Virus record (IMG/VR): IMGVR_UViG_3300002138_000054
Span: 1 to 28,239 of that record
DNA from: a virus
Length of the DNA stretch: 28,239 nucleotides
Reading direction: 5' to 3' (one strand)
The notes beneath the pieces were generated by a model that worked only from the letters and a program-made list of their open reading frames with translations, was not told where the DNA came from and did no database searches. The position numbers were made by a program, and so were the translations under genes. Positions 7,235 to 26,230 of the stretch are shown piece by piece. Position 1 is the first letter of the stretch. The number at the start of each line of letters is the position of its first letter.

Positions 7235-7825
7235 ATGGCAAATATTTCAGATTTTAAGGCACAACTTACTGGTGGCGGTGCACGCGCCAATCAGTTTAGA
7301 GTTGAATTATCTTTTCCATCATTTGTAACACTTGGAGTGGTTGCTGGATTACAGGCACAATTCTTGTGTAACGCTGCACAACTTCCGTCTTCTACAATAG
7401 AGCCTATCTCTGTTTTGTACAGAGGACGCCCAGTGAACTTTGCCGGTGAACGTACGTTCCAGCCTTGGACTATTGCAGTTTATAACGATACGAATTTTAA
7501 TATTCGTAATGCGTTAGAGCAATGGTCTAATGGTATTCAGAACAATGGTTCTACAACCGGTATTACGAATCCATTAAATTATCAAGCAGATCTTCAAGTT
7601 CATCAGTTAGATCGTAACGGTGCTACTGTTAAATCGTATAAGTTTATAGATTCATTCCCATCTGAGATAGGCGATATTCAGTTAGGCTTTGATCAAGGAA
7701 ACGCAATTGAAACGTTTAATGTCACATTTCAATATAATTATTGGATATCTGGCACTTCAACTCAGGGTAGCTCCTTTGGTGTTAATGCTACTATTAATAC
7801 ACCAGTTGGATCTTTCCCAGTATAA
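7235..7825 (+). CDS. 19: Tail tube protein gp19
   Basis: This 196-aa protein is the tail tube subunit, stacked as hexamers inside the sheath. It has the family landmarks 'GGARANQFRVEL', 'FLCNAAQLPSSTIEPISVLYRGRPVNFAGERTF' and 'W(T)IAVYND', and the C-terminal 'DSFPSEIGDIQLGFDQGNAIETFNVTFQYNYW' (compare LWPTNVGELQLDWDSNNEIQTFEVTLALDYW in T4). T4 gp19 is 163 aa, and the extra length is mostly a C-terminal Ser/Gly/Thr-rich extension after 'YNYWISG'. It has its own AAAGGAG ribosome site and an upstream late-promoter-like AATAAATA. Confidence 0.96.
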   Translation: MANISDFKAQLTGGGARANQFRVELSFPSFVTLGVVAGLQAQFLCNAAQLPSSTIEPISVLYRGRPVNFAGERTFQPWTIAVYNDTNFNIRNALEQWSNGIQNNGSTTGITNPLNYQADLQVHQLDRNGATVKSYKFIDSFPSEIGDIQLGFDQGNAIETFNVTFQYNYWISGTSTQGSSFGVNATINTPVGSFPV

Positions 7826-10561: not shown

Positions 10562-11215
10562 ATGAGATTAATTAGAGAAATAAACGAAACAACATCTTTA
10601 GTCGTAGAAAATAAACTCGGCAAAGGTAAAGAATATTTTATTGAAGGAATTTTTCTTCAATCAGAATTGCAAAATCGTAACGGCCGTCTTTATCCAGAAA
10701 AAGTTATGGATAAAGAAGTAGGTCGCTATATGGAAGCATTGGTTACGCAGAATCGCGCTTATGGTGAATTGGGACATCCTGATACACCACATATTAATTT
10801 AGATCGCGTATCACATCTTATCGTAGATCTTCGTAAAGAAGGAACGAATTATGTTGGTAAAGCAAAGATTTTAGAAACACCTATGGGTAAAATTGCTAGA
10901 GGTCTTTTAGACGGCGGAGCAAATTTAGGTGTTTCAAGCAGAGCGCTAGGTTCTCTCCAAATGAATAAAGAGGGAATTCAGGTTGTTCAAGACGATTTTA
11001 TGTTGTCAACGGCAGCGGACATCGTCGCAGACCCTTCAGCACCAGATGCATTCGTAAGAGGCATTATGGAATCTGTGGAATGGGTTTTTATTGATGGAAA
11101 ATTTGAGCAAAGACATATAGAGGAGACGCAGAAGTTAATTCGAAGAACTCCTTCAAAGAAACTAAACGAAACTTCTATTAAAGCTTTTCAGAATTTTCTA
11201 ACAAATCTGAAATAA
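10562..11215 (+). CDS. 21: Prohead maturation protease gp21
   Basis: This 217-aa serine protease cleaves the scaffold and the capsid protein during head maturation (T4 gp21 is 212 aa). The catalytic region is clear: His72 in 'YGELGHPDTPHINLDRVSH' and the nucleophilic serine in 'NLGVSSRALG' (Ser125/126), the arrangement of the herpesvirus-like prohead protease fold. The N-terminal 'FIEGIFLQSELQNRNGRLYP' is also characteristic of the family. The T4 enzyme cuts after (L/I)xE, and such sites are present in the gp22 and gp23 products encoded next. The protease is encoded immediately before its substrates. A late promoter separates it from gp22. Confidence 0.96.
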   Translation: MRLIREINETTSLVVENKLGKGKEYFIEGIFLQSELQNRNGRLYPEKVMDKEVGRYMEALVTQNRAYGELGHPDTPHINLDRVSHLIVDLRKEGTNYVGKAKILETPMGKIARGLLDGGANLGVSSRALGSLQMNKEGIQVVQDDFMLSTAADIVADPSAPDAFVRGIMESVEWVFIDGKFEQRHIEETQKLIRRTPSKKLNETSIKAFQNFLTNLK

Positions 11216-13510: not shown

Positions 13511-14047
13511 ATGACAATACGAACTCTTTCTTGCCCGCTTCCAGCAAACTTAAATCCGTTATCACCTAATGGATATATGTTTTCACTTCGACGTTTGCCC
13601 GAATTAAGTTACTTCTGCCAAGAAGTATCTTTACCTTCTATATCATTACCCGAAGCTACTCAGCTAAATCCTTTTTCAAAGATTCCTTTAGCAGGTGATC
13701 AAATTGATTTTGACACTTTAAGAGTACAATTTCTTATAGACGAAAAAATGGAGAACTATAGAGCAATTCACGATTGGATTGTTGGATTGGGTTTTCCAGA
13801 AAACAACAGTCAATACACAGCAGCAATAGAAGGTGCAGCACTGCTTGGAGCAGACGAAGTTGCTAAATCATATTCAGATGCTACATTAGTTATTTTAGGA
13901 AACAATAACGTACCAATCCAAGTTATTCAATTTGCTGATTGTGTTCCAGAAAGTCTTGAAAGTATCACCTTTACTTCAACTAACCAAGACGTCCAATATC
14001 TAATTGGATCGGCAACTTTTAGATATACTTACTACAAATTTATCTAA
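13511..14047 (+). CDS. Tail-tube-fold structural protein (gp19/gp54-like)
   Basis: This 178-aa protein resembles the tail-tube superfamily. It has 'PLSPNGYMFSLRRLPELSYFCQEVSLPSI', 'FDTLRVQFLIDEKMENYRAIHDWIVGLGFP', and a C-terminal beta-strand segment ending 'SATFRYTYYKF'. The 'ENYRAIHDW' segment parallels 'CNYRAMQDWV' of T4 gp54, the tube initiator, and the layout parallels gp19. It is therefore likely a tube or baseplate-hub component, but which T4 protein it replaces is uncertain. It is separated from gp23 by a strong terminator and has a late promoter that ends 8 nt before its ATG, which makes a leaderless mRNA likely. The next gene has its own sigma70-like promoter. Confidence 0.75.
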   Translation: MTIRTLSCPLPANLNPLSPNGYMFSLRRLPELSYFCQEVSLPSISLPEATQLNPFSKIPLAGDQIDFDTLRVQFLIDEKMENYRAIHDWIVGLGFPENNSQYTAAIEGAALLGADEVAKSYSDATLVILGNNNVPIQVIQFADCVPESLESITFTSTNQDVQYLIGSATFRYTYYKFI

Positions 14048-14053
14048 TTATTA

Positions 14054-14083
14054 TTGTACAATCTTGTAAATCTATGGTATAAT
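14054..14083 (+). promoter_or_regulatory. Sigma70-like early promoter for uvsY-uvsW
   Basis: -35 TTGTAC (14054-14059), 18-bp spacer, -10 TATAAT (14078-14083), preceded by TATGG as an extended -10. It shares sequence and exact spacing with five other promoters in this window (16485, 20039, 22234, 23440, 24186). Confidence 0.8.
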
Positions 14084-14104
14084 AGATTTCATAGGAGATA
14101 TATT

Positions 14105-17111: not shown

Positions 17112-17265
17112 TCGCGATTGGTTAGATAGAGTTGCTACTGCAGCAGATGTTTATTGTAGATTGCCTGATAGTAATGAAAAAGAAATAGATCGATTTTTAG
17201 AATATCTTTTTAAAGTATATGGTTATGCAGATCTTCTTGAAATAAGAAAGATAAAGAAACAATGA
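17104..17265 (+). CDS. Small conserved hypothetical protein before gp47
   Basis: This 53-aa protein reads 'MIDRDWLDRVATAADVYCRLPDSNEKEIDRFLEYLFKVYGY' then a basic end. It is predicted helical, with no motif I can name. The open frame reaches back into gene 55 (17053), but the ATG at 17104 is the more likely start because the upstream stretch duplicates gp55 coding sequence in another frame. It overlaps gp55 by 8 nt and gp47 by 4 nt, so it is part of the 55-47-46 operon. Confidence 0.6.
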   Translation: MIDRDWLDRVATAADVYCRLPDSNEKEIDRFLEYLFKVYGYADLLEIRKIKKQ

Positions 17266-18314
17266 AAGTAGCGATTATTACAGATCAACATTTTGGCGCA
17301 AGGAATGATAGCGCACAATGTTTAGATTATTATGAGCAATTTTACACAAATATATTTTTCCCAAAACTAAAAGATAGTGGTATTAAACATATTCTGATTC
17401 TTGGTGATACTTTTGATCGTAGGAAATTTATTAATTTTAATACTCTTGCCCGCGCTAAGCGAATGTTTTTTGATGTAGCATATAGTAATGATATCTTTAT
17501 TACTATGATTGCGGGTAACCATGATACTTATTATAAGAATACAAATGAAGTTAATAGTCCAGAATTAACTCTTGCAGAATATATCAATATAGTTATTATA
17601 ACACGACCTGAAACTATAGACGTACATGGAATTCCAATCTGCTTTCTCCCATGGATTTGCGCAGAAACATCTACAGATTCAATGAATGAAATAAAAACAA
17701 CTAAAGCTGATATTTGTATGGGTCACCTTGAAATTTCTGGTTTTGCAATGTATAGAGGAATTGAATCACATGATGGATTATCTAAAGATTCGTTTAGTAA
17801 ATTTGATATGGTATTTTCAGGACATTACCATCATCGGTCTGACGACGGCCATATTTATTATCTTGGGAATCCTTATGAATTAACTTGGCAGGACTATAAT
17901 GATCCTCGTGGATTTCATATATTTGATCTTGAGACACGTAAATTAGAATTCATTCAAAACACATATAGTTTGTTTGAACGATATGAATATGACGATACGA
18001 TAAACTCAGAAGATCCAATCTTCGCTAATTTTAAAGATAAGTACGTTAAGATTGTTGTTATTAATAAAACTAATCTTTATAAATTTGACAAGTTTATAAA
18101 CAGTGTGTATCAACACAATCCTCTTGAAGTTAAAATAATTGAAGACTTCTCCGAATTCACTGAAGGTGAAGTTGATGAGAATATTAATTTAGAAGATACT
18201 TCAAGTGTATTATCTAATTATATCGATTCTCTTGAAACAGAAGTAGATAAAGAAAAAGTTAAAACTTTCATGAAAAGCTTATACACTGAAGCTATTAATC
18301 GGGATGTAATATGA
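17262..18314 (+). CDS. 47: Recombination nuclease gp47 (Mre11-like)
   Basis: This 350-aa metallophosphoesterase nuclease is the Mre11 homologue that works with gp46 to resect DNA ends in phage recombination and host DNA degradation. The metal-binding motifs are all present: 'ITDQHFG' (Asp8, His10), 'LGDTFDRR' (Asp49), 'AGNHDTYY' (Asn86, His87, Asp88), 'MGHLEISG' (His155) and 'FSGHYHHR' (His188, His190). The length matches T4 gp47 (339 aa). The stop overlaps gp46 by 4 nt (ATGA), giving coupled production of the two subunits. Confidence 0.97.
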   Translation: MKVAIITDQHFGARNDSAQCLDYYEQFYTNIFFPKLKDSGIKHILILGDTFDRRKFINFNTLARAKRMFFDVAYSNDIFITMIAGNHDTYYKNTNEVNSPELTLAEYINIVIITRPETIDVHGIPICFLPWICAETSTDSMNEIKTTKADICMGHLEISGFAMYRGIESHDGLSKDSFSKFDMVFSGHYHHRSDDGHIYYLGNPYELTWQDYNDPRGFHIFDLETRKLEFIQNTYSLFERYEYDDTINSEDPIFANFKDKYVKIVVINKTNLYKFDKFINSVYQHNPLEVKIIEDFSEFTEGEVDENINLEDTSSVLSNYIDSLETEVDKEKVKTFMKSLYTEAINRDVI

Positions 18315-20023
18315 TCGTATTCAAAACATTGAGTTGGCGTAATTTTTTGTCAACTGGCAATGCAGAAAATAAAATTGTTCTAAACAAATCTCAAAGCACT
18401 TTAGTCATAGGAAGAAATGGCGAAGGCAAATCAACTATGCTTGACGCTTTGACTTTTGCTCTCTTTAGTAAACCTTTTCGTAACATCAATAAACCTCAGC
18501 TTGTTAATTCAATTAATGGCAAGAATTGCGTAGTAGAAATTGAGTTTGATATTGGTACTAATGAATACAAAATTATTCGTGGATTAAAGCCTAACATATT
18601 TGAAATTTGGTTAAATGGAAATAAGATAAATCAAGACGCTGCTTCTAAGGATTACCAAAACGTATTAGAACAACAAATCTTACGACTTAACTACAAAACA
18701 TTTACACAAGTAGTTATTCTAGGTTCAGCATCATTCGTTCCGTTTATGCAACTTCCGGCATGGCAACGTCGAGAAGTTATTGAAGACATTTTAGATATTA
18801 GCATCTTTTCTACAATGAATCAAATTTTAAAGGAAAGAGTGAATGAAAACAAAGATCAGCTCAACACGATTGACAATCAAATTAAAACTGCCAAATCGAA
18901 TGTTGAGATACAGAAAAAACTCATTGGGTCATTGGTTAGTTCTAAAAAACAACAGGTGGATCAGATCCGTAAACAAATTGCGGATAATGAAGAGGAACTT
19001 ACAACGAATGAGAAATCGCGTTTAGCCTTTAGTAATAAAATAAATTCTATACTTGCGTCTTCTGAAGATGAAAGTGATCTTAAACACTCTATAACATCAG
19101 TTATAAAATCTAAAACAACATTTGCTCATACTAAAGAACAGACTGAAAAGAATTTAACTTTCTTTAATGAAAACGAAGTATGTCCTTCATGCTCTCAAAA
19201 CATTCCTCATGAACATAAGACTGATATTATTACTCGTCTTAATCAAGATGTAATAGAGATACAATCAAGTATGAGCGTAATTGAAGACGCTTATGCCCAA
19301 TTGCTTGAGCGTCAAAACAAGTTTAATGAATCTTCAAAAAATATTCTAACTCTTAGCGCACAGTGTAATAGTTTAGTGTCAGCGAATACTCTATTAACAA
19401 AACAAAATATTAAACTGTTAAAAGATATTGAGAATGCTAATGGTGATACAAACAATATTGATGAAGAAAAGAATAAGCTTAAACAGATTGCAGATGAAGC
19501 TCTAATATTAATTGACGATAAGAATAGGCTTTATCAAGAAAAACAAATTCATGATATATCTTCTATTTTATTAAAAGACAGTGGAATTAAAACTGCAATT
19601 ATTAAAGAGTATCTCCCATTTATGAATAAGTTTATAAATGGTTATTTGACAGCAATGGATTTTTATGTGCACTTTGAATTAGATGAATCTTTTAACGAAG
19701 TCATCAAATCACGTTTTCGTGATGAATTCACGTATGCTTCTTTTTCAGAAGGCGAAAAGATGCGTATCGATCTTGCAATATTATTCACATGGCGTCAAAT
19801 CGCAAAAATGAAGAATTCAGTGAATACTAATCTTCTTATTCTTGATGAGATATTTGATTCTTCTCTAGATAACTCTGGCACCGATTATTTCTTATCTATC
19901 ATGAATGCAATAGGCGACAAATCTAACGTATTCGTAATATCGCATAAGGGCGATCAATTGTTTGATAAGTTCCATTCTGTGGTGAAGTTTGAAAAGAAGA
20001 ATGACTTCTCATCTATAGTCTAA
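18311..20023 (+). CDS. 46: Recombination ATPase gp46 (Rad50-like)
   Basis: This 570-aa SMC/Rad50-type ATPase is the partner of gp47 (T4 gp46 is 560 aa). Walker A 'GRNGEGKST' lies at residues 34-42. A long coiled coil with the zinc hook 'CPSCSQ' (Cys291, Cys294) follows, then the ABC signature 'FSEGEKMRID' (about 478-487), Walker B 'LLILDEIFD' (Asp512, Glu513) and 'VISHK'. All expected ATPase and hook residues are intact. It overlaps gp47 by 4 nt and ends the 55-47-46 cluster, after which a new sigma70-like promoter begins. Confidence 0.97.
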   Translation: MIVFKTLSWRNFLSTGNAENKIVLNKSQSTLVIGRNGEGKSTMLDALTFALFSKPFRNINKPQLVNSINGKNCVVEIEFDIGTNEYKIIRGLKPNIFEIWLNGNKINQDAASKDYQNVLEQQILRLNYKTFTQVVILGSASFVPFMQLPAWQRREVIEDILDISIFSTMNQILKERVNENKDQLNTIDNQIKTAKSNVEIQKKLIGSLVSSKKQQVDQIRKQIADNEEELTTNEKSRLAFSNKINSILASSEDESDLKHSITSVIKSKTTFAHTKEQTEKNLTFFNENEVCPSCSQNIPHEHKTDIITRLNQDVIEIQSSMSVIEDAYAQLLERQNKFNESSKNILTLSAQCNSLVSANTLLTKQNIKLLKDIENANGDTNNIDEEKNKLKQIADEALILIDDKNRLYQEKQIHDISSILLKDSGIKTAIIKEYLPFMNKFINGYLTAMDFYVHFELDESFNEVIKSRFRDEFTYASFSEGEKMRIDLAILFTWRQIAKMKNSVNTNLLILDEIFDSSLDNSGTDYFLSIMNAIGDKSNVFVISHKGDQLFDKFHSVVKFEKKNDFSSIV

Positions 20024-20038
20024 AACGTCTAAATAACG

Positions 20039-20068
20039 GTGTACAATAAATCGTAATTGATATATAAT
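20039..20068 (+). promoter_or_regulatory. Sigma70-like early promoter, leaderless gene
   Basis: -35 GTGTAC (20039-20044), 18-bp spacer, -10 TATAAT (20063-20068). The expected start of transcription is at or very near 20075, the A of the ATG of the next gene, and no ribosome site fits between. Confidence 0.72.
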
Positions 20069-20074
20069 TATATC

Positions 20075-22210
20075 ATGAATACGACAAATATCGCCTCAAA
20101 CACTCAAGATTTGCTAGCTAAATTGCTAGCTACTGAAAACGTTACGGTACTACGTAGTAACGTTTCTACAGCTTCTTTTGACATTAAAAATCGTGTATTA
20201 ACTCTTCCAACGTGGAAAGATTTGACGCCTGAAATCGAAGAAATGCTTATTCTTCATGAAGTCGGTCATGCTCTTTTCACTTCTGAAGAAGGTTATAGTA
20301 TAGTCTATACAGAGAAACGCCATCTTCGTGGCTATGCCAATATCATTGAAGATGTACGTATTGAAAAGAAAATGAAAGATCGTTATCCAGGTTCTCGTAA
20401 ATCGTTTAATTCTGGTTATACACAACTCAACGATCGAGATTTCTTTGGAGTTAAAGAAAGAAATCTTGCTTCTTTGTTATTCATTGATCGAATTAACTTA
20501 TATTATAAAGCTGGTTATTCGTGCGGAGTTAATTTTTCTCAACAAGAATCTGTAATGCTTGAAAAAGTTAACAAGTGCGTAACTGAAAAAGATGTCGTTC
20601 TTCTTGCAGAAGAAATTTATAATTATTGTCTACAAGACATGTCAGAAGATGAAGATGAACGTCGACAAAAGAAAGTATACGTCTCATCAAAAGATGACTT
20701 TGAAAATTCTGAAGATGAAGGTGATATAGATTATGACGATGTAGATGAGCAAGACGATGTAGATAAGCAAGACGAAGAATATGACTTTGACGTAGATATA
20801 CAACCAGAAACTATAGATAATTTTGAAAAAGCTCTTGACAAATATCAAGATCGTGATTCTCGTACATATTATCTAGATGCGCAATTTGAAGCACAAGGCG
20901 AAGATCCTCTTATTTCTTATAAGAAAATACTCGTAGAAATGCGTTTTCAATATATGGAAGAAGTCGAGTTGGCTTCTCATAAAAATCTAGAAGAAGGAAG
21001 TTTATATTGGGAAAAACGTATTAAGCAGCAAGCGTCTAAGTTTAAAATAGAAAGCAATAACATTGTCAACTATCTAGTAAAAGAATTTGAAATGCGCAAA
21101 TCAGCTACAGCTTGGAAGCGTACTAAAATTTCTAAAATAGGACAACTTGATACTCGTAAATTATTTGCATATAAACTTAAGGACGATTTGTTTAAGCAGA
21201 TCTCTAGAGTAGAAGAAGGTAAGAAACATGGAATGGTGTTTCTATTAGATTGGTCTGGCTCTATGTCAAATTACATGGATGAAACTGTAGAGCAAGTTGT
21301 GAATCTTGCAATGTTCTGCCATAAAGTTAATATTCCATATCAAGTCTTAGCATTTAGCGATACCTATGTTCGCGCTAAATCTGACGTTCACAAGATAAAT
21401 GATAAAGGATTAGACAACAGCGATAGTTTTTCTCTGTTAGAATTGTTTAGCCATAAAATGAATTCACGAGAATTTAATAAAATGTGTGAATTCATGCTTG
21501 ATAAGCCTTGGATGCGTGGGCGTAACAATACATTTGGACTTAACGGCACTCCATTAAATCATAGTCTAATTTATATGGTTGACTATATTGGGAAGTTTAT
21601 TAAAATCAATGATGTTGAGAAAATGAATCTCGTGATTTTGACAGATGGTGAGAGTAACGGTCTACATCACTATGATCACGCTAAACAAGATTCTTATGGG
21701 ATTAAATCTGGTCATATTAATATTTTAGAAAAAGGCGTAATGATCAAAATAAACGCTAAAACGTTTATTCGTGATAAAGTAACTCGCAAAGAATATAAAT
21801 TTACTGATGATGGCGCACAACAAACTGCTTCACTGTTAAAGTTAATTAAAGATCGATATAGATTGCGTGTTACAGCTTTTAATATAACTAATTATGGTTA
21901 TAGATCTATTGAAAGATTTATACGGTTTAATATCGAAAGTGATAAGTTCCAATCTAGCTCTGAACGATATCAGTTATGCACCAATATACAATCTAAATTG
22001 CGTAAAGAAAAAGGCGTAGTATTAAAAGAAGTTCCAGGACGCGATGAAACTTATCTTATTCTCTCTACTAATAAAATTGTAGATGAAGATCTAGATGGTG
22101 TTAAGAGCGATATGTCTGCAATTCAAATATCAAAACAACTCACTAAAATGTTCACATCACGCAAAACGTCTAGGGTTGTCTTAAATAGTTTCATAGGAGT
22201 TGTGGCATAA
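20075..22210 (+). CDS. CobT-like VWA protein with HExxH metallopeptidase motif
   Basis: This 711-aa protein has two recognisable parts. Near the N-terminus 'LILHEVGHALF' carries an HExxH zinc motif (His61-His65), and about 30 residues later 'ANIIEDVRIEKKM' may supply the third ligand. The centre (about 205-250) is a highly acidic linker. From about residue 388, 'VFLLDWSGSMS' gives a VWA MIDAS motif (Asp392, Ser394, Ser396), with 'NGTPLNHS' and 'VILTDGES' completing it. Such phage proteins are often labelled CobT-like or peptidase, but a role in B12 synthesis is unlikely. It precedes a MoxR/CobS-type ATPase, a classic VWA partner. ATG 20075 is preferred over TTG 20057, which lies inside the promoter spacer. 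The mRNA appears leaderless. Confidence 0.85.
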   Translation: MNTTNIASNTQDLLAKLLATENVTVLRSNVSTASFDIKNRVLTLPTWKDLTPEIEEMLILHEVGHALFTSEEGYSIVYTEKRHLRGYANIIEDVRIEKKMKDRYPGSRKSFNSGYTQLNDRDFFGVKERNLASLLFIDRINLYYKAGYSCGVNFSQQESVMLEKVNKCVTEKDVVLLAEEIYNYCLQDMSEDEDERRQKKVYVSSKDDFENSEDEGDIDYDDVDEQDDVDKQDEEYDFDVDIQPETIDNFEKALDKYQDRDSRTYYLDAQFEAQGEDPLISYKKILVEMRFQYMEEVELASHKNLEEGSLYWEKRIKQQASKFKIESNNIVNYLVKEFEMRKSATAWKRTKISKIGQLDTRKLFAYKLKDDLFKQISRVEEGKKHGMVFLLDWSGSMSNYMDETVEQVVNLAMFCHKVNIPYQVLAFSDTYVRAKSDVHKINDKGLDNSDSFSLLELFSHKMNSREFNKMCEFMLDKPWMRGRNNTFGLNGTPLNHSLIYMVDYIGKFIKINDVEKMNLVILTDGESNGLHHYDHAKQDSYGIKSGHINILEKGVMIKINAKTFIRDKVTRKEYKFTDDGAQQTASLLKLIKDRYRLRVTAFNITNYGYRSIERFIRFNIESDKFQSSSERYQLCTNIQSKLRKEKGVVLKEVPGRDETYLILSTNKIVDEDLDGVKSDMSAIQISKQLTKMFTSRKTSRVVLNSFIGVVA

Positions 22211-22233
22211 AATTAGAATTTAATTCAAAAAGC

Positions 22234-22263
22234 CTGTACAATAAATCATCTCTATGGTATAAT
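22234..22263 (+). promoter_or_regulatory. Sigma70-like early promoter for the AAA+ ATPase
   Basis: -35 CTGTAC (22234-22239), 18-bp spacer, -10 TATAAT (22258-22263) preceded by CTATGG. The segment TGTACAATAAATC is shared with the promoter at 20039, and CTATGGTATAATAG with the one at 14054. Confidence 0.82.
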
Positions 22264-22297
22264 AGTTATACAAACAGAAATAATTGATCAACTTAAT

Positions 22298-22315
22298 ATG
22301 AAGACTATATTATGA
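22298..22315 (+). other. Five-codon leader minicistron (MKTIL)
   Basis: ATG at 22298 opens a five-codon frame whose TGA (22313-22315) overlaps the ATG of the ATPase gene in an ATGA junction. A similar arrangement precedes the DUF5664 gene at 24241-24258. It may serve translational coupling, but it could be chance. Confidence 0.3.
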
Positions 22316-23436
22316 ACACCCGCACACAATTTTTAGATACTATTATGAGTGAATTTCCAGATGCATCATCATCTGGATGCGTAAGTCGCAAGCAAATTGC
22401 TCATACAATGAAAAAGCTAGGCGAAGTAAAATGGCCAATTTGGCTTATGCAAAACAGAGCTTCTCGTGGTCTTTATCTTCTTCCAGGTAAAAACCTCATG
22501 CCAGCACAAGAAGAAGTTGCTCAGGAACAAATTAATATGCAAGATGTTACAAGTCTTATTCCAAAAATAGACGCAAACTACGTTGCATATGGAAACTACA
22601 AAGACATAGAAGTTGTTATCAAATCACGACAATTTTATCCTGCTTATATTAGTGGTCCTACTGGAAACGGTAAATCTACAACAGTAGAACAAGCTTGTGC
22701 TAAAAATAGGCGTCCTCTTATTCGTGTAAATTTGAATATGATGACAGATGAAGATCAATTGATTGGATCTAAAACTCTTGTCGATGGTAATGTTGAAATT
22801 ATCGAAGGACCAATTCTTATCGCCATGCGAAATGGCATACCAATTCTTCTCGATGAAATCGATGCAGGTTCAGCAAATACTTTACTTTGCTTGCAACCAA
22901 TCCTTGAAGGAAAGCCCTATTACTTCAAGTTGAAGAATGAACTTATCTACCCAGCTCCAGGATTCACAGTTTTTGCTACTGCTAATACTAAAGGCAAAGG
23001 CAGTGATGATGGTCGCTATATAGGCACCAACGTTTTAAATGAAGCGTTCCTAGAACGTTTTGCGATCACTTTCAACCAAGACTATCCTAGTGCTTCAGTT
23101 GAAAATAAGATCGTTATGAATCTAATGAGGTCCTTGAATTGCGTAGACGAGCAATTTGCTGAAACACTTACTAAGTGGGCAGACGCAATCCGTAGGACTT
23201 TTGCAGATGGCGGAGTGGATGAAACTATTACCACACGCAGATTAGTGCATATTGTTCGTACGTTTTCTATGTTTAAAGATAAAAAGAAAGCCGTTGAATT
23301 GTGTATTAATCGATTTGATGACATCACTCGAAATGCATTCTTGAATCTTTTCGAAAAAGTGTCTAATCCAGATGTTATAACAGATACTCCCATTCAACCA
23401 GTTGAACCAGAACAAGTTGAAGAAATTCCATTCTAA
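22312..23436 (+). CDS. cobS: MoxR/CobS-type AAA+ ATPase
   Basis: This 374-aa AAA+ ATPase is of the CobS/MoxR group, common in aquatic T4-like phages. After an N-terminal small domain (residues 1-65, 'SRKQIAHTMKKLGEVKWPIWL...RGLYLLPG'), the ATPase core shows Walker A 'SGPTGNGKST' (Lys121), Walker B 'ILLDEIDAG' (Asp181, Glu182), a sensor-like 'FTVFATANT' and 'LNEAFLERF'. MoxR ATPases act as chaperones that remodel partners together with VWA proteins, and one such protein is encoded immediately upstream. The CobS name (cobaltochelatase subunit) reflects homology only. No B12 genes are present. The N-terminal domain is related to the next gene product. ATG 22312 lies 49 nt after the promoter -10. 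Confidence 0.88.
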   Translation: MNTRTQFLDTIMSEFPDASSSGCVSRKQIAHTMKKLGEVKWPIWLMQNRASRGLYLLPGKNLMPAQEEVAQEQINMQDVTSLIPKIDANYVAYGNYKDIEVVIKSRQFYPAYISGPTGNGKSTTVEQACAKNRRPLIRVNLNMMTDEDQLIGSKTLVDGNVEIIEGPILIAMRNGIPILLDEIDAGSANTLLCLQPILEGKPYYFKLKNELIYPAPGFTVFATANTKGKGSDDGRYIGTNVLNEAFLERFAITFNQDYPSASVENKIVMNLMRSLNCVDEQFAETLTKWADAIRRTFADGGVDETITTRRLVHIVRTFSMFKDKKKAVELCINRFDDITRNAFLNLFEKVSNPDVITDTPIQPVEPEQVEEIPF

Positions 23437-23439
23437 ATG

Positions 23440-23469
23440 GTGTACATTTAATCTGGGCTATGGTATAAT
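23440..23469 (+). promoter_or_regulatory. Sigma70-like early promoter for the small paralogue gene
   Basis: -35 GTGTAC (23440-23445), 18-bp spacer, -10 TATAAT (23464-23469) within CTATGGTATAATA. It starts only 3 nt after the ATPase stop. Confidence 0.82.
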
Positions 23470-23505
23470 ATCTTCTGAAACAGTGAAACCCGAAAGGTCT
23501 TATTT

Positions 23506-23859
23506 ATGAATTATTCTAAACTAACTAAAATTCAAAAGCGTTGTATTGACGCATTTATTAAACTAAAACCTGAACTTGAAACATGTTCAGAAATTACCCG
23601 ACCAGAAATTGAAGATCTTTTCAAAATTCTATTCGATGCACGCGAATCTGGTGGTGAGAAGATCGGGTACCCAATGTGGCTTGTAAAAGGCGACAAATCA
23701 GCTCGTGGTGTTTATAAGTTTCCCGCGCCTGGTCTTTCTGTAGAAGATTCTCAACCAGCTTCTAAAACTAAAATGGTATTACCTGCTGTAAAAGTTGAAG
23801 AAGAAGATAAAGAATTTTTTACAGATCTAAAAACTTATGGCATTATGGAAACAGCTTAA
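23506..23859 (+). CDS. Stand-alone paralogue of the AAA+ ATPase N-terminal domain
   Basis: This 117-aa protein has no named family that I recognise. It can be aligned with residues 1-75 of the preceding ATPase: 'SEITRPEIEDLFKILFDAR' with 'GCVSRKQIAHTMKKL', 'GEKIGYPMWLVKGDKSARGVYKFPAPGL' with 'GEVKWPIWLMQNRASRGLYLLPGKNL'. A winged-helix-like DNA- or protein-binding module is plausible. The C-terminal part is charged, with 'KVEEEDKEFFTDLKTYGIM'. It has its own promoter and a GAAAGG ribosome site 8 nt upstream. It may compete with or tether to the ATPase, but this is inference. Confidence 0.7.
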   Translation: MNYSKLTKIQKRCIDAFIKLKPELETCSEITRPEIEDLFKILFDARESGGEKIGYPMWLVKGDKSARGVYKFPAPGLSVEDSQPASKTKMVLPAVKVEEEDKEFFTDLKTYGIMETA

Positions 23860-23875
23860 CAAAAGCTGCTTTCTT
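23852..23875 (+). terminator. Possible weak terminator after the small paralogue
   Basis: CAGCTT, loop AACAA, AAGCTG, then CTTTCTT, overlapping the stop codon of the gene. The short 6-bp stem and interrupted T-run make it weak. A second short hairpin, TGAGA/TCTCA (23886-23899), precedes a T-rich stretch. Confidence 0.35.
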
Positions 23876-23934
23876 AATAGTATAGTGAGAATGATCTCAT
23901 TGTGCTTATTTTTATTAACATTATGGAGTTTTAA

Positions 23935-24180
23935 ATGACTAAACTTGCACGTCTTGAATCGTATCTAAACAGTGGCTCAGATGCCACTCCTCGTCAAATC
24001 ACCGGCATGTTCGGGTTGCAGAATCCTACTGCAGCTGTTCATGCACTGCGGAGTAAGGGTGTTTGTGTATACGCAAACCAAGCAGTACTTACGACAGGCG
24101 AGCGTACAGTTAAGTATGCCATCGGCCGACCAACTAAGCGGATGATTTCTGCTGCTCACGCACTTGGTCTATTTGCTTAA
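23935..24180 (+). CDS. Small putative winged-helix protein
   Basis: This 81-aa basic protein reads 'ARLESYLNSGSDATPRQITGMFGLQNPTAAVHALRSKGVCVYANQAVLTTGERTVKYAIGRPTKRM'. The pattern of a helix, 'TPRQITGMFGL', 'AAVHALRSKG' and then a beta hairpin is that of a winged helix-turn-helix domain. Similar small proteins occur in many phages. Binding to DNA and a regulatory role are inferences. The ribosome site GGAG precedes ATG 23935 by 7 nt. No convincing promoter of the 18-bp family was found before it, so it may be read through from 23440. A hairpin/promoter element follows it. Confidence 0.7.
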   Translation: MTKLARLESYLNSGSDATPRQITGMFGLQNPTAAVHALRSKGVCVYANQAVLTTGERTVKYAIGRPTKRMISAAHALGLFA

Positions 24181-24185
24181 TTAAA

Positions 24186-24215
24186 GTGTAATTTAAACGA
24201 GGGTTATGTTATAAT
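24186..24215 (+). promoter_or_regulatory. Sigma70-like promoter for DUF5664-gp45 genes
   Basis: -35 GTGTAA (24186-24191), 18-bp spacer, -10 TATAAT (24210-24215). The -10 hexamer lies in the loop of a perfect 12-bp inverted repeat (24198-24229). It is expected to lead the clamp and clamp-loader genes. Confidence 0.75.
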
Positions 24216-24229
24216 AGACATAACCCTCG
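24198..24229 (+). promoter_or_regulatory. Perfect 12-bp inverted repeat around a -10 box
   Basis: CGAGGGTTATGT, an 8-nt loop TATAATAG, then ACATAACCCTCG, followed by TTTATTA. In read-through RNA this forms a stable hairpin with a moderate U tract, so it can act as a terminator for upstream transcription. On DNA the same dyad embraces the promoter -10 and could be an operator. Confidence 0.7.
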
Positions 24230-24254: not shown

Positions 24255-24623
24255 ATGACAATTAATTTATTATCGACTGCTAGAGAAACGATTGAAAAAT
24301 CTCAAACTGCTACTACTGGTGGGCGCAAATTCGATGGTAACAAATCTGAATATGGTTTGATTCCGCATATTGCTCTTGAAGAAATGGTTAAAGTTCTTAC
24401 CTTTGGTGCGCAAAAGTATGAACGTGATAATTGGAAAAAAGTACCAGATTCAAAACGCAGATATTTTGATGCTCTTCAAAGACATTTGTGGGCATGGAAA
24501 GGCGATGAGCAAATAGATCCAGAAAGTGGATACCATCACCTAGCGCATGCAATGTGTTGTTTGTTTTTCTTGTATGAGCATGATGTAGTATATTCAAATA
24601 ACGAAGAGATGAAAAAGGACTAA
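24255..24623 (+). CDS. DUF5664-type dATP/dGTP diphosphohydrolase-like protein
   Basis: This 122-aa protein matches the small phage family called dATP/dGTP diphosphohydrolase N-terminal domain (DUF5664), which includes the MazZ enzyme of 2-aminoadenine phages. Features are 'GRKFDGNKSEYGLIPHIALEEMVKVLTFGAQKYERDNWKKV', 'RRYFDALQRHLWAWKGDEQIDPESGYHHLAHAMCCLFFLYEHD', with conserved Glu and His residues of the MazG-like all-helical fold. The expected role is trimming the nucleotide pool. No PurZ or other Z-genome gene is in the window, so the substrate is unknown. It directly precedes the sliding clamp gene (3-nt gap) and so is co-expressed with replication genes. A five-codon frame (24241-24258) overlaps its start. 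Confidence 0.82.
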   Translation: MTINLLSTARETIEKSQTATTGGRKFDGNKSEYGLIPHIALEEMVKVLTFGAQKYERDNWKKVPDSKRRYFDALQRHLWAWKGDEQIDPESGYHHLAHAMCCLFFLYEHDVVYSNNEEMKKD

Positions 24624-24626
24624 CAA

Positions 24627-25292
24627 ATGCAATTATCTAAAGAAACACTAAACATCATTAAAAACTTTTCATTGATCAATGGAAGTTTAATGCTTAAAGC
24701 CGGCAATAAGTTGGCGACAATTTCAGAAGGCAAGAACGTCATGGCAGAAGTGACTATTGCTGAAACATTCCCAAGTGACTTTGGAATCTATGATCTTCAT
24801 GAATTCCTAGGTGTAACCTCTATTTTCGATAATACTGATCTTGACTTTAAAGAAAAGTATACGTTGATCTCTGATTCTACTAATACAAATTCTCGTATTA
24901 AATACTTTGCTGCAGGTGAAGGAGTTGTTAAAGCTCCACCAGCAACAATTAAATTTCCAAATGCAGATGTATCGTTTACACTAGATGCATCACAACTTGC
25001 AATGATTCAACGTACTGCAGGTATTCTTAAGGCAAGTGATGTTACTATTATGGGCGACGGCGTTACACTAAGCGTTATTGTTTCTGATAAAAAGAACGAT
25101 ACAGCTAATGCTTATACCCATTCGCTTGGTATTACTGACGAAACATTTAAAGCTCATCTAAAAGTTGAGAATCTTAAGATGATTCCAAATGATTATGAAG
25201 TGGCTATCTCAAAGAAGAAAATCTCTCGGTTCAAGCACACTGCTTCTGACCTAACATATTTTGTTGCTGTTGAATCTGACTCGGAGTTCTAA
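24627..25292 (+). CDS. 45: Sliding clamp gp45
   Basis: This 221-aa protein matches the trimeric DNA polymerase processivity clamp (T4 228 aa). It has the N-terminal 'LSKETLNIIKNFSLINGSLMLKAGNKLATIS', 'VMAEVTIAETFPSDFGIYDLHEFLGV' and a C-terminal 'YEVAISKKKISRFKHTASDLTYFVAVESDS', in line with the two-domain T4 clamp. Besides tethering gp43 polymerase, it activates gp55-dependent late transcription in T4. The stop overlaps the gp44 start by one base (TAATG). Confidence 0.95.
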   Translation: MQLSKETLNIIKNFSLINGSLMLKAGNKLATISEGKNVMAEVTIAETFPSDFGIYDLHEFLGVTSIFDNTDLDFKEKYTLISDSTNTNSRIKYFAAGEGVVKAPPATIKFPNADVSFTLDASQLAMIQRTAGILKASDVTIMGDGVTLSVIVSDKKNDTANAYTHSLGITDETFKAHLKVENLKMIPNDYEVAISKKKISRFKHTASDLTYFVAVESDSEF

Positions 25293-26230
25293 TGAGCAAT
25301 GCATTTTTATGGGTAGAACGCTATCGTCCTCAAACAATCGATGAGTGTATTCTACCAGACTCGATGAAGAATACATTCAAGGAGTTCATTAACTCTGGTG
25401 AATTGCCTAACTTCTTATTCTGTGGTGGAGCAGGCGTAGGTAAAACTACAGTTGCAAAAGCACTATGTAACGAGATTGGCGCTGAATATCTTTTCATCAA
25501 TGGTTCAGAAGAATCTGGTATCGATGTTCTTCGTAGCAAGATAAAAGGCTTTGCGTCTTCAGTATCACTCACTGATGCTAAGAAAGTCGTTATTCTTGAT
25601 GAAGCAGATTATCTTAACGCAAATTCAACTCAACCAGCTCTTCGTGGATTCATTGAAGAGTTTAGTAATAATTGTAGATTCATCTTTACGTGTAATTTTA
25701 AAAATCGTATTATTGAACCATTGCACTCACGCTGTGCAGTAATTGAATTTAAGATAGATAATCCTGAAAAAGCAAAGATTGCTAGTAACTTCTTTAAGCG
25801 TGTTAAAGGTATTCTTCAAACAGAAAATATTAAAGCTGACTCAAATGTAGTTGCAGAACTTATTAGCAAATATTTTCCAGACTATCGTAGAATCTTAAAT
25901 GAATTGCAAAGGTATTCTGTTAGTGGCGTTATCGATTCGGGTATTCTTGTAAATCTTAGCGATGAATCGTATGTAGAATTAATAAAGAACTTAAAAGCTA
26001 AGAACTTTACTGAAGCACGTAAGTGGGTTGCAAAGAATAGTGATATTGAATCAACTGAATTGTTCCGTAAACTTTATGATAAAGCGATTGATTATCTAGA
26101 GCAAGCATCTATTCCTCAATTAGTTTTAATCCTTGCAGAGTATCAATATAAGGCTGCGTTCGTAGCTGATCGTGAAATAAACACCATGGCAGCTCTTACG
26201 GAGATCATGGCGCAATTGAAATTCAAGTAA
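25292..26230 (+). CDS. 44: Clamp loader large subunit gp44
   Basis: This 312-aa AAA+ protein forms the ATPase ring that opens and loads gp45 (T4 319 aa). Motifs are the N-terminal 'LWVERYRPQTIDECILP', Walker A 'GGAGVGKTTVAKAL' (Lys51), Walker B 'VVILDEAD' (Asp103-Asp106), sensor 1 'FIFTCNF', and the arginine-finger SRC motif 'LHSRCAVIEF' (Arg147). The C-terminal helical collar follows. It sits between gp45 and a small gene before gp62, as in cyanophages. Confidence 0.97.
   Translation: MSNAFLWVERYRPQTIDECILPDSMKNTFKEFINSGELPNFLFCGGAGVGKTTVAKALCNEIGAEYLFINGSEESGIDVLRSKIKGFASSVSLTDAKKVVILDEADYLNANSTQPALRGFIEEFSNNCRFIFTCNFKNRIIEPLHSRCAVIEFKIDNPEKAKIASNFFKRVKGILQTENIKADSNVVAELISKYFPDYRRILNELQRYSVSGVIDSGILVNLSDESYVELIKNLKAKNFTEARKWVAKNSDIESTELFRKLYDKAIDYLEQASIPQLVLILAEYQYKAAFVADREINTMAALTEIMAQLKFK

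Follow-up and report, generated by a model that had tools for sequence, protein, structure and literature searches.

A four-gene cassette between gp46 and gp45

Here we describe a cassette of four genes on the + strand of a T4-like phage sequence of 28,239 bases (virus record IMGVR_UViG_3300002138_000054; this whole stretch is referred to as the window). The cassette lies between gp46 and gp45. Its first two genes encode a zincin-VWA protein of 711 amino acids (aa) and a MoxR/CobS-type AAA+ ATPase, and this pair is the main subject of our analysis. All four open reading frames (ORFs) that had been proposed in an earlier note on this DNA proved to be real.

20075..22210, + strand: gene 1, zincin-VWA protein, 711 aa from the ATG; matches phrog_459 'peptidase' (E=1.9e-164), supported by AlphaFold2 models and conservation
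22312..23436, + strand: gene 2, MoxR/CobS-type AAA+ ATPase, 374 aa; matches AAA_5 (54.7 bits), CbbQ_C (25.1 bits) and phrog_249 'porphyrin biosynthesis' (E=4e-101)
23506..23859, + strand: gene 3, free copy of the ATPase N-terminal domain, 117 aa; identified by alignment against shuffled sequences and conserved beside the ATPase
23935..24180, + strand: gene 4, putative winged-helix protein, 81 aa; matches phrog_4973

The 711-aa protein is composed of a zincin-like domain (residues 1-205), an acidic linker that varies in length (~205-245), a helical region (245-380) and a VWA domain with a metal ion-dependent adhesion site (MIDAS; 383-711). The following sites were located within the pair.

20255..20269, + strand: HEVGH, residues 61-65, putative zinc ligands and catalytic Glu; H61, E62 and H65 invariant
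20339..20365, + strand: N89-I-I-E92-D93-V-R95-I-E97 on the following helix; D93 or E92 may supply the third zinc ligand, alongside support residues
21248..21262, + strand: MIDAS motif DWSGS, residues 392-396; T492 and D524 complete the MIDAS
22312..22500, + strand: ATPase N-terminal domain (SRKQIA...WPIWLMQNRASRGLYLLP), possibly helix-turn-helix-like, common to gene 3
22654..22677, + strand: Walker A motif GPTGNGKS, ATPase residues 115-122; K121 conserved in 71/71 relatives

We compared the zincin-VWA protein with its homologues at 72 T4-like loci. H61, E62, H65, N89, E92, D93 and R95 as well as five MIDAS residues (D392, S394, S396, T492 and D524) were invariant in 72/72 sequences. The invariance of HExxH is not built into this sample because the loci were retrieved with patterns taken from other regions of the protein, none of which contains HExxH. 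All 72 homologues terminate at the same alignment column, and the HEVGH site was present in 87/87 proteins with an intact fused N-terminus.

AlphaFold2 modeled the full 711-aa protein with a predicted local distance difference test score of 78 and the N-domain (residues 1-204) with a score of 95.2. HExxH is placed on a helix (residues 52-68) of the N-domain model. The first 14 Foldseek matches of this model are all zincins (selecase, jannalysin, abylysin, ArdC, IrrE/PprI, LTA4H), and ZMPSTE24, selecase, HtpX and ArdC rank at the top in VIA. These fold matches support a zincin-like N-domain, short of proof. For the VWA domain, the closest structures are NorD in NorQD (Z 15.2) and the MDN1/Rea1 MIDAS domain (Z 15.0), whereas generic VWA domains reach at most 12.0. 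In the full-length model, beta strands 547-576 follow the third MIDAS residue. A sequence search of the PDB with the 711-aa protein or its alignment gave no significant match, and the literature searched contained no report of peptidase activity for the phage pair.

The ATPase retains its Walker A Lys, Walker B Asp/Glu, sensor-1 Asn and Arg-finger in 70-71 of 71 relatives, and its best phmmer score was obtained with midasin. Alignment of gene 3 with the ATPase N-domain scored 57, while the maximum in 1000 shuffles was 43. In about 20 loci of the nearest relatives the ATPase is followed by genes 3 and 4, which likely encode small accessory proteins; a winged-helix fold of gene 4 is plausible. 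The earlier note had described a protein combining an HExxH peptidase motif with a MIDAS VWA domain, a MoxR/CobS AAA+ partner forming a MoxR-VWA pair with it, and a free copy of the ATPase N-domain. Each of these assignments was borne out: the motif is part of a zincin-like domain and persists throughout the T4-like clade, and intact AAA+ residues stand next to a complete MIDAS (DxSxS-T-D). As a separate observation, the ATPases of SSU5-like phage-plasmids (L093 4048-5310, L104 7985-9229) start with a zinc-finger-like C..C...H..H instead of the T4-like N-domain.

Exact copies of TGTACAWTWAATC number three in the window, one upstream of each of the first three genes, and each is followed by TATAAT at a 17-nt spacer. 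A motif search located these promoter-like elements as follows.

20040..20068, + strand: TGTACAATAAATC...TATAAT, before gene 1
22235..22263, + strand: TGTACAATAAATC...TATAAT, before gene 2
23441..23469, + strand: TGTACATTTAATC...TATAAT, before gene 3

A 13-base core matches at these sites; a 30-base promoter consensus with fixed spacing does not, because the spacing and the -10 flank vary. Of the proposal that three genes carry early promoters, the three exact elements stand as sequence and the timing may be early. Two further sequences resemble the -10 region of genes 2 and 3, namely TATGGTATAATA (14073-14084), at the start of a UvsY-like ORF, and TATGTTATAATA (24205-24216), before a deoxynucleoside triphosphate pyrophosphohydrolase gene.

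Distribution and neighborhood of the pair

Relatives of gene 1 were found in 463 phage records, 450 of which are named Synechococcus, Prochlorococcus or 'Cyanophage'; the remaining ones belong to marine, Pelagibacter, Stenotrophomonas, Ochrobactrum and Pseudoalteromonas phages. The counts for the ATPase over the three cyanophage names (365/61/24) are identical to those of gene 1, indicating that the two genes travel together. Consistent with this, the co-occurrence analysis suggested previously covered 65 T4-like loci whose downstream sequence extends for 2.5 kb or more; 59 of them carry the ATPase, in 55 cases adjacent and on the same strand. Among the six loci without an ATPase in the fetched stretch, one (L053) carries it elsewhere on the contig and the others are fragments. 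Upstream, gp46 was found in 36/50 loci with at least 4 kb of upstream sequence, and downstream, gp45 or gp44 was found in 38/48. The gene cobS has been listed as part of the cyanophage core (Sullivan et al., 2010; PMC3037559). In Pseudoalteromonas phage vB_Psh_XG4 (L010 5914-8171) the zincin and VWA parts occupy two neighboring ORFs, VWA first, and the ATPase is apparently split.

According to family matches, the window contains head and tail genes followed by UvsY, UvsW, gp55, gp47-gp46, gp45, gp44, gp62, RegA and Hsp20. A fifth gene between gp46 and gp45, at 24255, encodes a dATP/dGTP diphosphohydrolase N-domain protein. The tail-tube family phrog_45 is matched by two separate genes (7235-7825 and 13511-14047). 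The cassette is flanked by the following genes.

17262..20023, + strand: gp47 and gp46, Mre11/Rad50-like recombination nuclease; gp47 matches phrog_100 (E=1e-110), gp46 is assigned by SMC_N/AAA_23 and synteny
24627..26230, + strand: gp45 sliding clamp and gp44 clamp loader, assigned by family matches and synteny

A scan of bacterial genomes recovered T4-like contigs and a second group of relatives (L129-L150) on apparent integrative and conjugative elements (ICEs) or plasmids of Chromatiales, methylotrophs, and Desulfo- and Clostridia-type genomes. HExxH and N..ED.RIE are present in 22/22 members of this group, and MIDAS D.S.S is invariant in the 17 that were aligned at full length. The scan itself used two patterns, one of them N[VI][VIL]ED[AVS]RIE, which leaves only the HExxH count unbiased here. 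The VWA protein of ICEs and IncC plasmids is homologous to the window family (hhalign 99.7%, E 8e-26, 477 columns). A plasmid search with the 711-aa protein of the window gave no match; a more CobT-like phage relative did match. Relatives of the IncC zincin-VWA protein occur in more than 1400 plasmid records; about 700 records carry one with ≥99% identity, and the plasmids are mostly conjugative.

Relatives on ICEs, IncC plasmids and phage-plasmids retain the HExxH-type site, including those on IncC plasmids of E. coli and in the E. coli K-12 phage PhiR41_1. Its histidines are lost in three sequences of SSU5-kind phages or phage-plasmids (Acinetobacter, phiK7B1 and BUCTxx99). Loss of the motif among homologues, which the earlier note had named as a point against its peptidase reading, is absent from the 72 T4-like sequences and present in relatives from Acinetobacter, Pseudomonas and Stenotrophomonas phages and in the B12 protein CobT, as described below.

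The neighborhoods share a theme. On ICEs and IncC plasmids the gene order is ssb-bet/recT-exo-AAA-DUF3150-VWA, with a zinc-ribbon/Toprim primase nearby. Phage-plasmids and Rhizobium or Stenotrophomonas phages carry the pair near ligase, primase, recombinase and PolIII-alpha genes, and in Zobellviridae it lies near primase and polymerase. Roseobacter phage CRP-810 is a weak case with only an endonuclease V gene nearby. A replication and recombination setting is thus common to four unrelated lineages that use different replication enzymes. For the earlier suggestion that the system acts on host proteins we found no evidence; the recurring neighborhood points to replication and recombination instead. 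In most ICE and plasmid modules (L101, L103, L129-L150) a DUF3150 gene lies just upstream of the zincin-VWA gene; the literature searched yielded nothing on DUF3150 or on an IncC VWA/cobS operon.

Relation to CobT and possible function

The phage genes are commonly named after vitamin B12 synthesis, so we compared them with the cobaltochelatase subunits CobS and CobT. The ATPase scored 91 bits against the CobS equivalog TIGR01650, far below the cut-off of 558.55. The 711-aa protein stayed below the cut-offs of Pfam CobT and CobT_C, and its only hit, VWA_CoxE (13.2 bits), was also below cut-off. Related phage, ICE and phage-plasmid proteins do reach the Pfam CobT cut-off. A direct comparison of the T4-like family with the CobT profile was weak and local (48% probability), so homology to CobT rests on a chain from the T4-like family through the ICE proteins to Pfam CobT. 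The earlier comparison with CobS-CobT was therefore right about a relationship, which goes beyond analogy. CobT chains were absent from the structural match lists of the VWA domain and the N-domain, an absence that proves nothing.

In 19 true CobT sequences, all from one alphaproteobacterial family, H61, N89 and D93 are found in 0/19, E92 is kept in 18/19, and R95 and E97 are kept. A quick tree of the wider family requires three site changes, of which well-supported branches force two or more, and places CobT on a long inner branch. The position of the root decides between loss and gain of the zinc site; loss is the simpler option because the fold resembles other zincins. True CobT thus looks like a relative whose zinc site has decayed.

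How might the pair work? From the domain make-up, the invariant sites, the homologies and the gene neighborhoods we infer complex formation, zinc binding, proteolysis and a class of substrate. We put about even confidence in the reading that the pair is an ATP-driven MIDAS/zincin machine whose task is to remodel or cleave proteins in the DNA metabolism of phages or plasmids. In such a machine, the ATPase would assemble into a ring and the VWA domain of the 711-aa partner would dock on it, an arrangement established for NorQD and midasin, with a substrate protein bound at the MIDAS site. By analogy with NorQD, ATP hydrolysis would then move the VWA domain relative to the zincin domain across the flexible acidic linker and present the bound protein to the zincin site. 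There it would be remodeled, and the intact HExxH site makes clipping probable. Since the neighbors in four unrelated lineages point to DNA replication and recombination, the substrate may come from these processes, for example a protein at DNA ends, forks or repair intermediates. Gene 3 perhaps competes with or extends the ATPase N-domain. In a bolder version, which we consider quite unlikely as a whole, a zincin common to mobile elements and driven by an AAA+ ATPase would in effect be a protease for DNA-protein crosslinks or for the clearing of DNA ends, which strips or cuts DNA-bound proteins. Its partners would be gp47/46 in T4-like phages and Exo/Bet in ICEs and IncC plasmids, and CobT would have arisen from this family by loss of the zinc site.

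Several observations weigh against the reading as a remodeling or proteolytic machine of DNA metabolism. The structure prediction that the earlier note had called for placed HExxH on a helix and ranked zincins first, but the matches are weak (best Foldseek E 0.066, VIA Z at most 7.6). Candidates for the third zinc ligand are N89, E92 and D93, and their patterns among relatives conflict: N89 and D93 are retained in relatives that retain HExxH, in ICP2-type phages E92 is replaced by V although HExxH is intact, and in BUCTxx99 ED is present where HExxH is missing. Relatives in Acinetobacter, Pseudomonas and Stenotrophomonas phages or phage-plasmids keep the VWA protein and the ATPase without HExxH; proteolysis can therefore not be essential everywhere. 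The neighborhood argument is guilt by association, as replication genes make up a large share of such genomes. Finally, deletion in SXT of bet, exo, s067, s068 or s070, genes that may include the one for the VWA protein, reduced transfer at most 10-fold (PMC2791158).

The relatives that lack the histidines and still retain the pair fit a different idea, namely that the N-domain is a non-catalytic scaffold in which HExxH is structural and the pair remodels without cutting. We regard this as unlikely, given that the site does not vary in the 72 T4-like sequences, the catalytic Glu included. A role in counter-defense or host takeover, in which an early machine inactivates host proteins that attack incoming DNA such as restriction or defense enzymes, is a minor possibility. 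The promoter-like elements are of the kind expected before early genes, the carriers are lytic phages and conjugative elements that both enter a hostile cell, and the zincin domain has a weak fold match to the plasmid antirestriction protein ArdC. However, the pair is core and syntenic in hundreds of T4-like phages whereas anti-defense genes are usually patchy, its flanks are replication and recombination genes, and PADLOC gave no match for the window proteins.

Other proposals derive from known relatives. A zinc-type site that carries or delivers metal to a phage enzyme, as in metal insertion or enzyme activation by NorQD/CbbQO, would agree with NorD as the closest VWA match, with the CbbQ_C domain of the ATPase and with iron insertion by NorQD (PMC13036017). 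It appears improbable since E62, the catalytic Glu, is as invariant as the histidines and no single client enzyme lies beside the pair across all carrier elements. A virion-assembly chaperone with proteolytic processing of structural proteins was proposed for jumbo phages (Iyer et al., 2021; PMC7824862), where MoxR-vWA systems are also cited as aiding tail assembly in an archaeal virus. This role is highly improbable here: homologous machines with an intact site reside on elements that form no virions, the IncC plasmids and ICEs, and the genes lie in a replication block away from the structural genes of a phage that has a prohead protease of its own (at 10562). We give close to no credence to a cobaltochelatase, in which viral CobST would hijack host CobN and raise B12 (Liu et al., 2021; PMC8651126). 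Pfam CobT families are indeed matched by related proteins of phages and ICEs, and Prochlorococcus genomes carry CobN/ChlH-type proteins, so that for cyanophages taken by themselves the proposal retains a small likelihood, but the low CobS score and a zinc-type site that true CobT lacks argue against it. Moreover, relatives infect or reside in E. coli, whose control genome gave no CobN match, and no further B12 gene was found among the window genes matched to families. The doubt about a B12 function voiced in the earlier note is thus upheld.

Significance and comparison with known systems

Taken together, the pair is real, conserved and probably mis-named, and it belongs to a kind already described. 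New here are the pattern of intact and decayed sites across the CobT family and the replication and recombination setting common to phages, ICEs and plasmids. Phage 'cobS' is widely counted as a vitamin B12 auxiliary metabolic gene of ocean viruses, and many ecological statements on viral B12 genes would need revision if the pair were a remodeling or proteolytic machine of DNA metabolism. A step of phage replication and of IncC resistance plasmid biology that is conserved yet unstudied would then become testable by simple mutants, and an origin of the CobT N-domain is suggested.

The earlier note had called the cassette uncharacterized, yet the pair has been described before. The cyanophage-core pair of 'peptidase' and 'CobS' (phrog_459/phrog_249) consists of the same two proteins in the same order and place between gp46 and gp45. 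Its peptidase shares about 31% identity with that of the window, which adds genes 3 and 4, found beside the ATPase only in nearer relatives. The group 2.2 jumbo-phage pair likewise has an N-terminal metallopeptidase fused to a vWA domain beside a MoxR ATPase (PMC7824862), a likeness by description only, and the virion-assembly role proposed for it does not fit the plasmid and ICE relatives. The VWA, AAA and DUF3150 module of ICEs and IncC plasmids has a homologous zincin-VWA protein with the same site and a CobS-like AAA protein. It differs by the extra DUF3150 gene, by other recombination enzymes and by its location on conjugative elements.

The aerobic cobaltochelatase CobS-CobT resembles the window pair in its related AAA protein and in the layout of N-domain and VWA domain, whereas CobT lacks the HExxH/N/D site, works with CobN and has a different gene context. 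NorQ-NorD likewise combines a MoxR AAA protein with a MIDAS-VWA partner. In NorQD, a finger of the VWA domain inserts into the AAA pore and the C-terminus of NorD contacts the post-sensor-1 loop of NorQ; ATP hydrolysis turns the VWA domain against the N-domain while the linker is stretched (PMC13036017). The likeness covers the VWA domain; the role of NorD is metal insertion for nitric oxide reductase. Midasin/Rea1 has a MIDAS domain as close as that of NorD and is the best match of the ATPase, but it is a single, very large eukaryotic protein that serves ribosome assembly.

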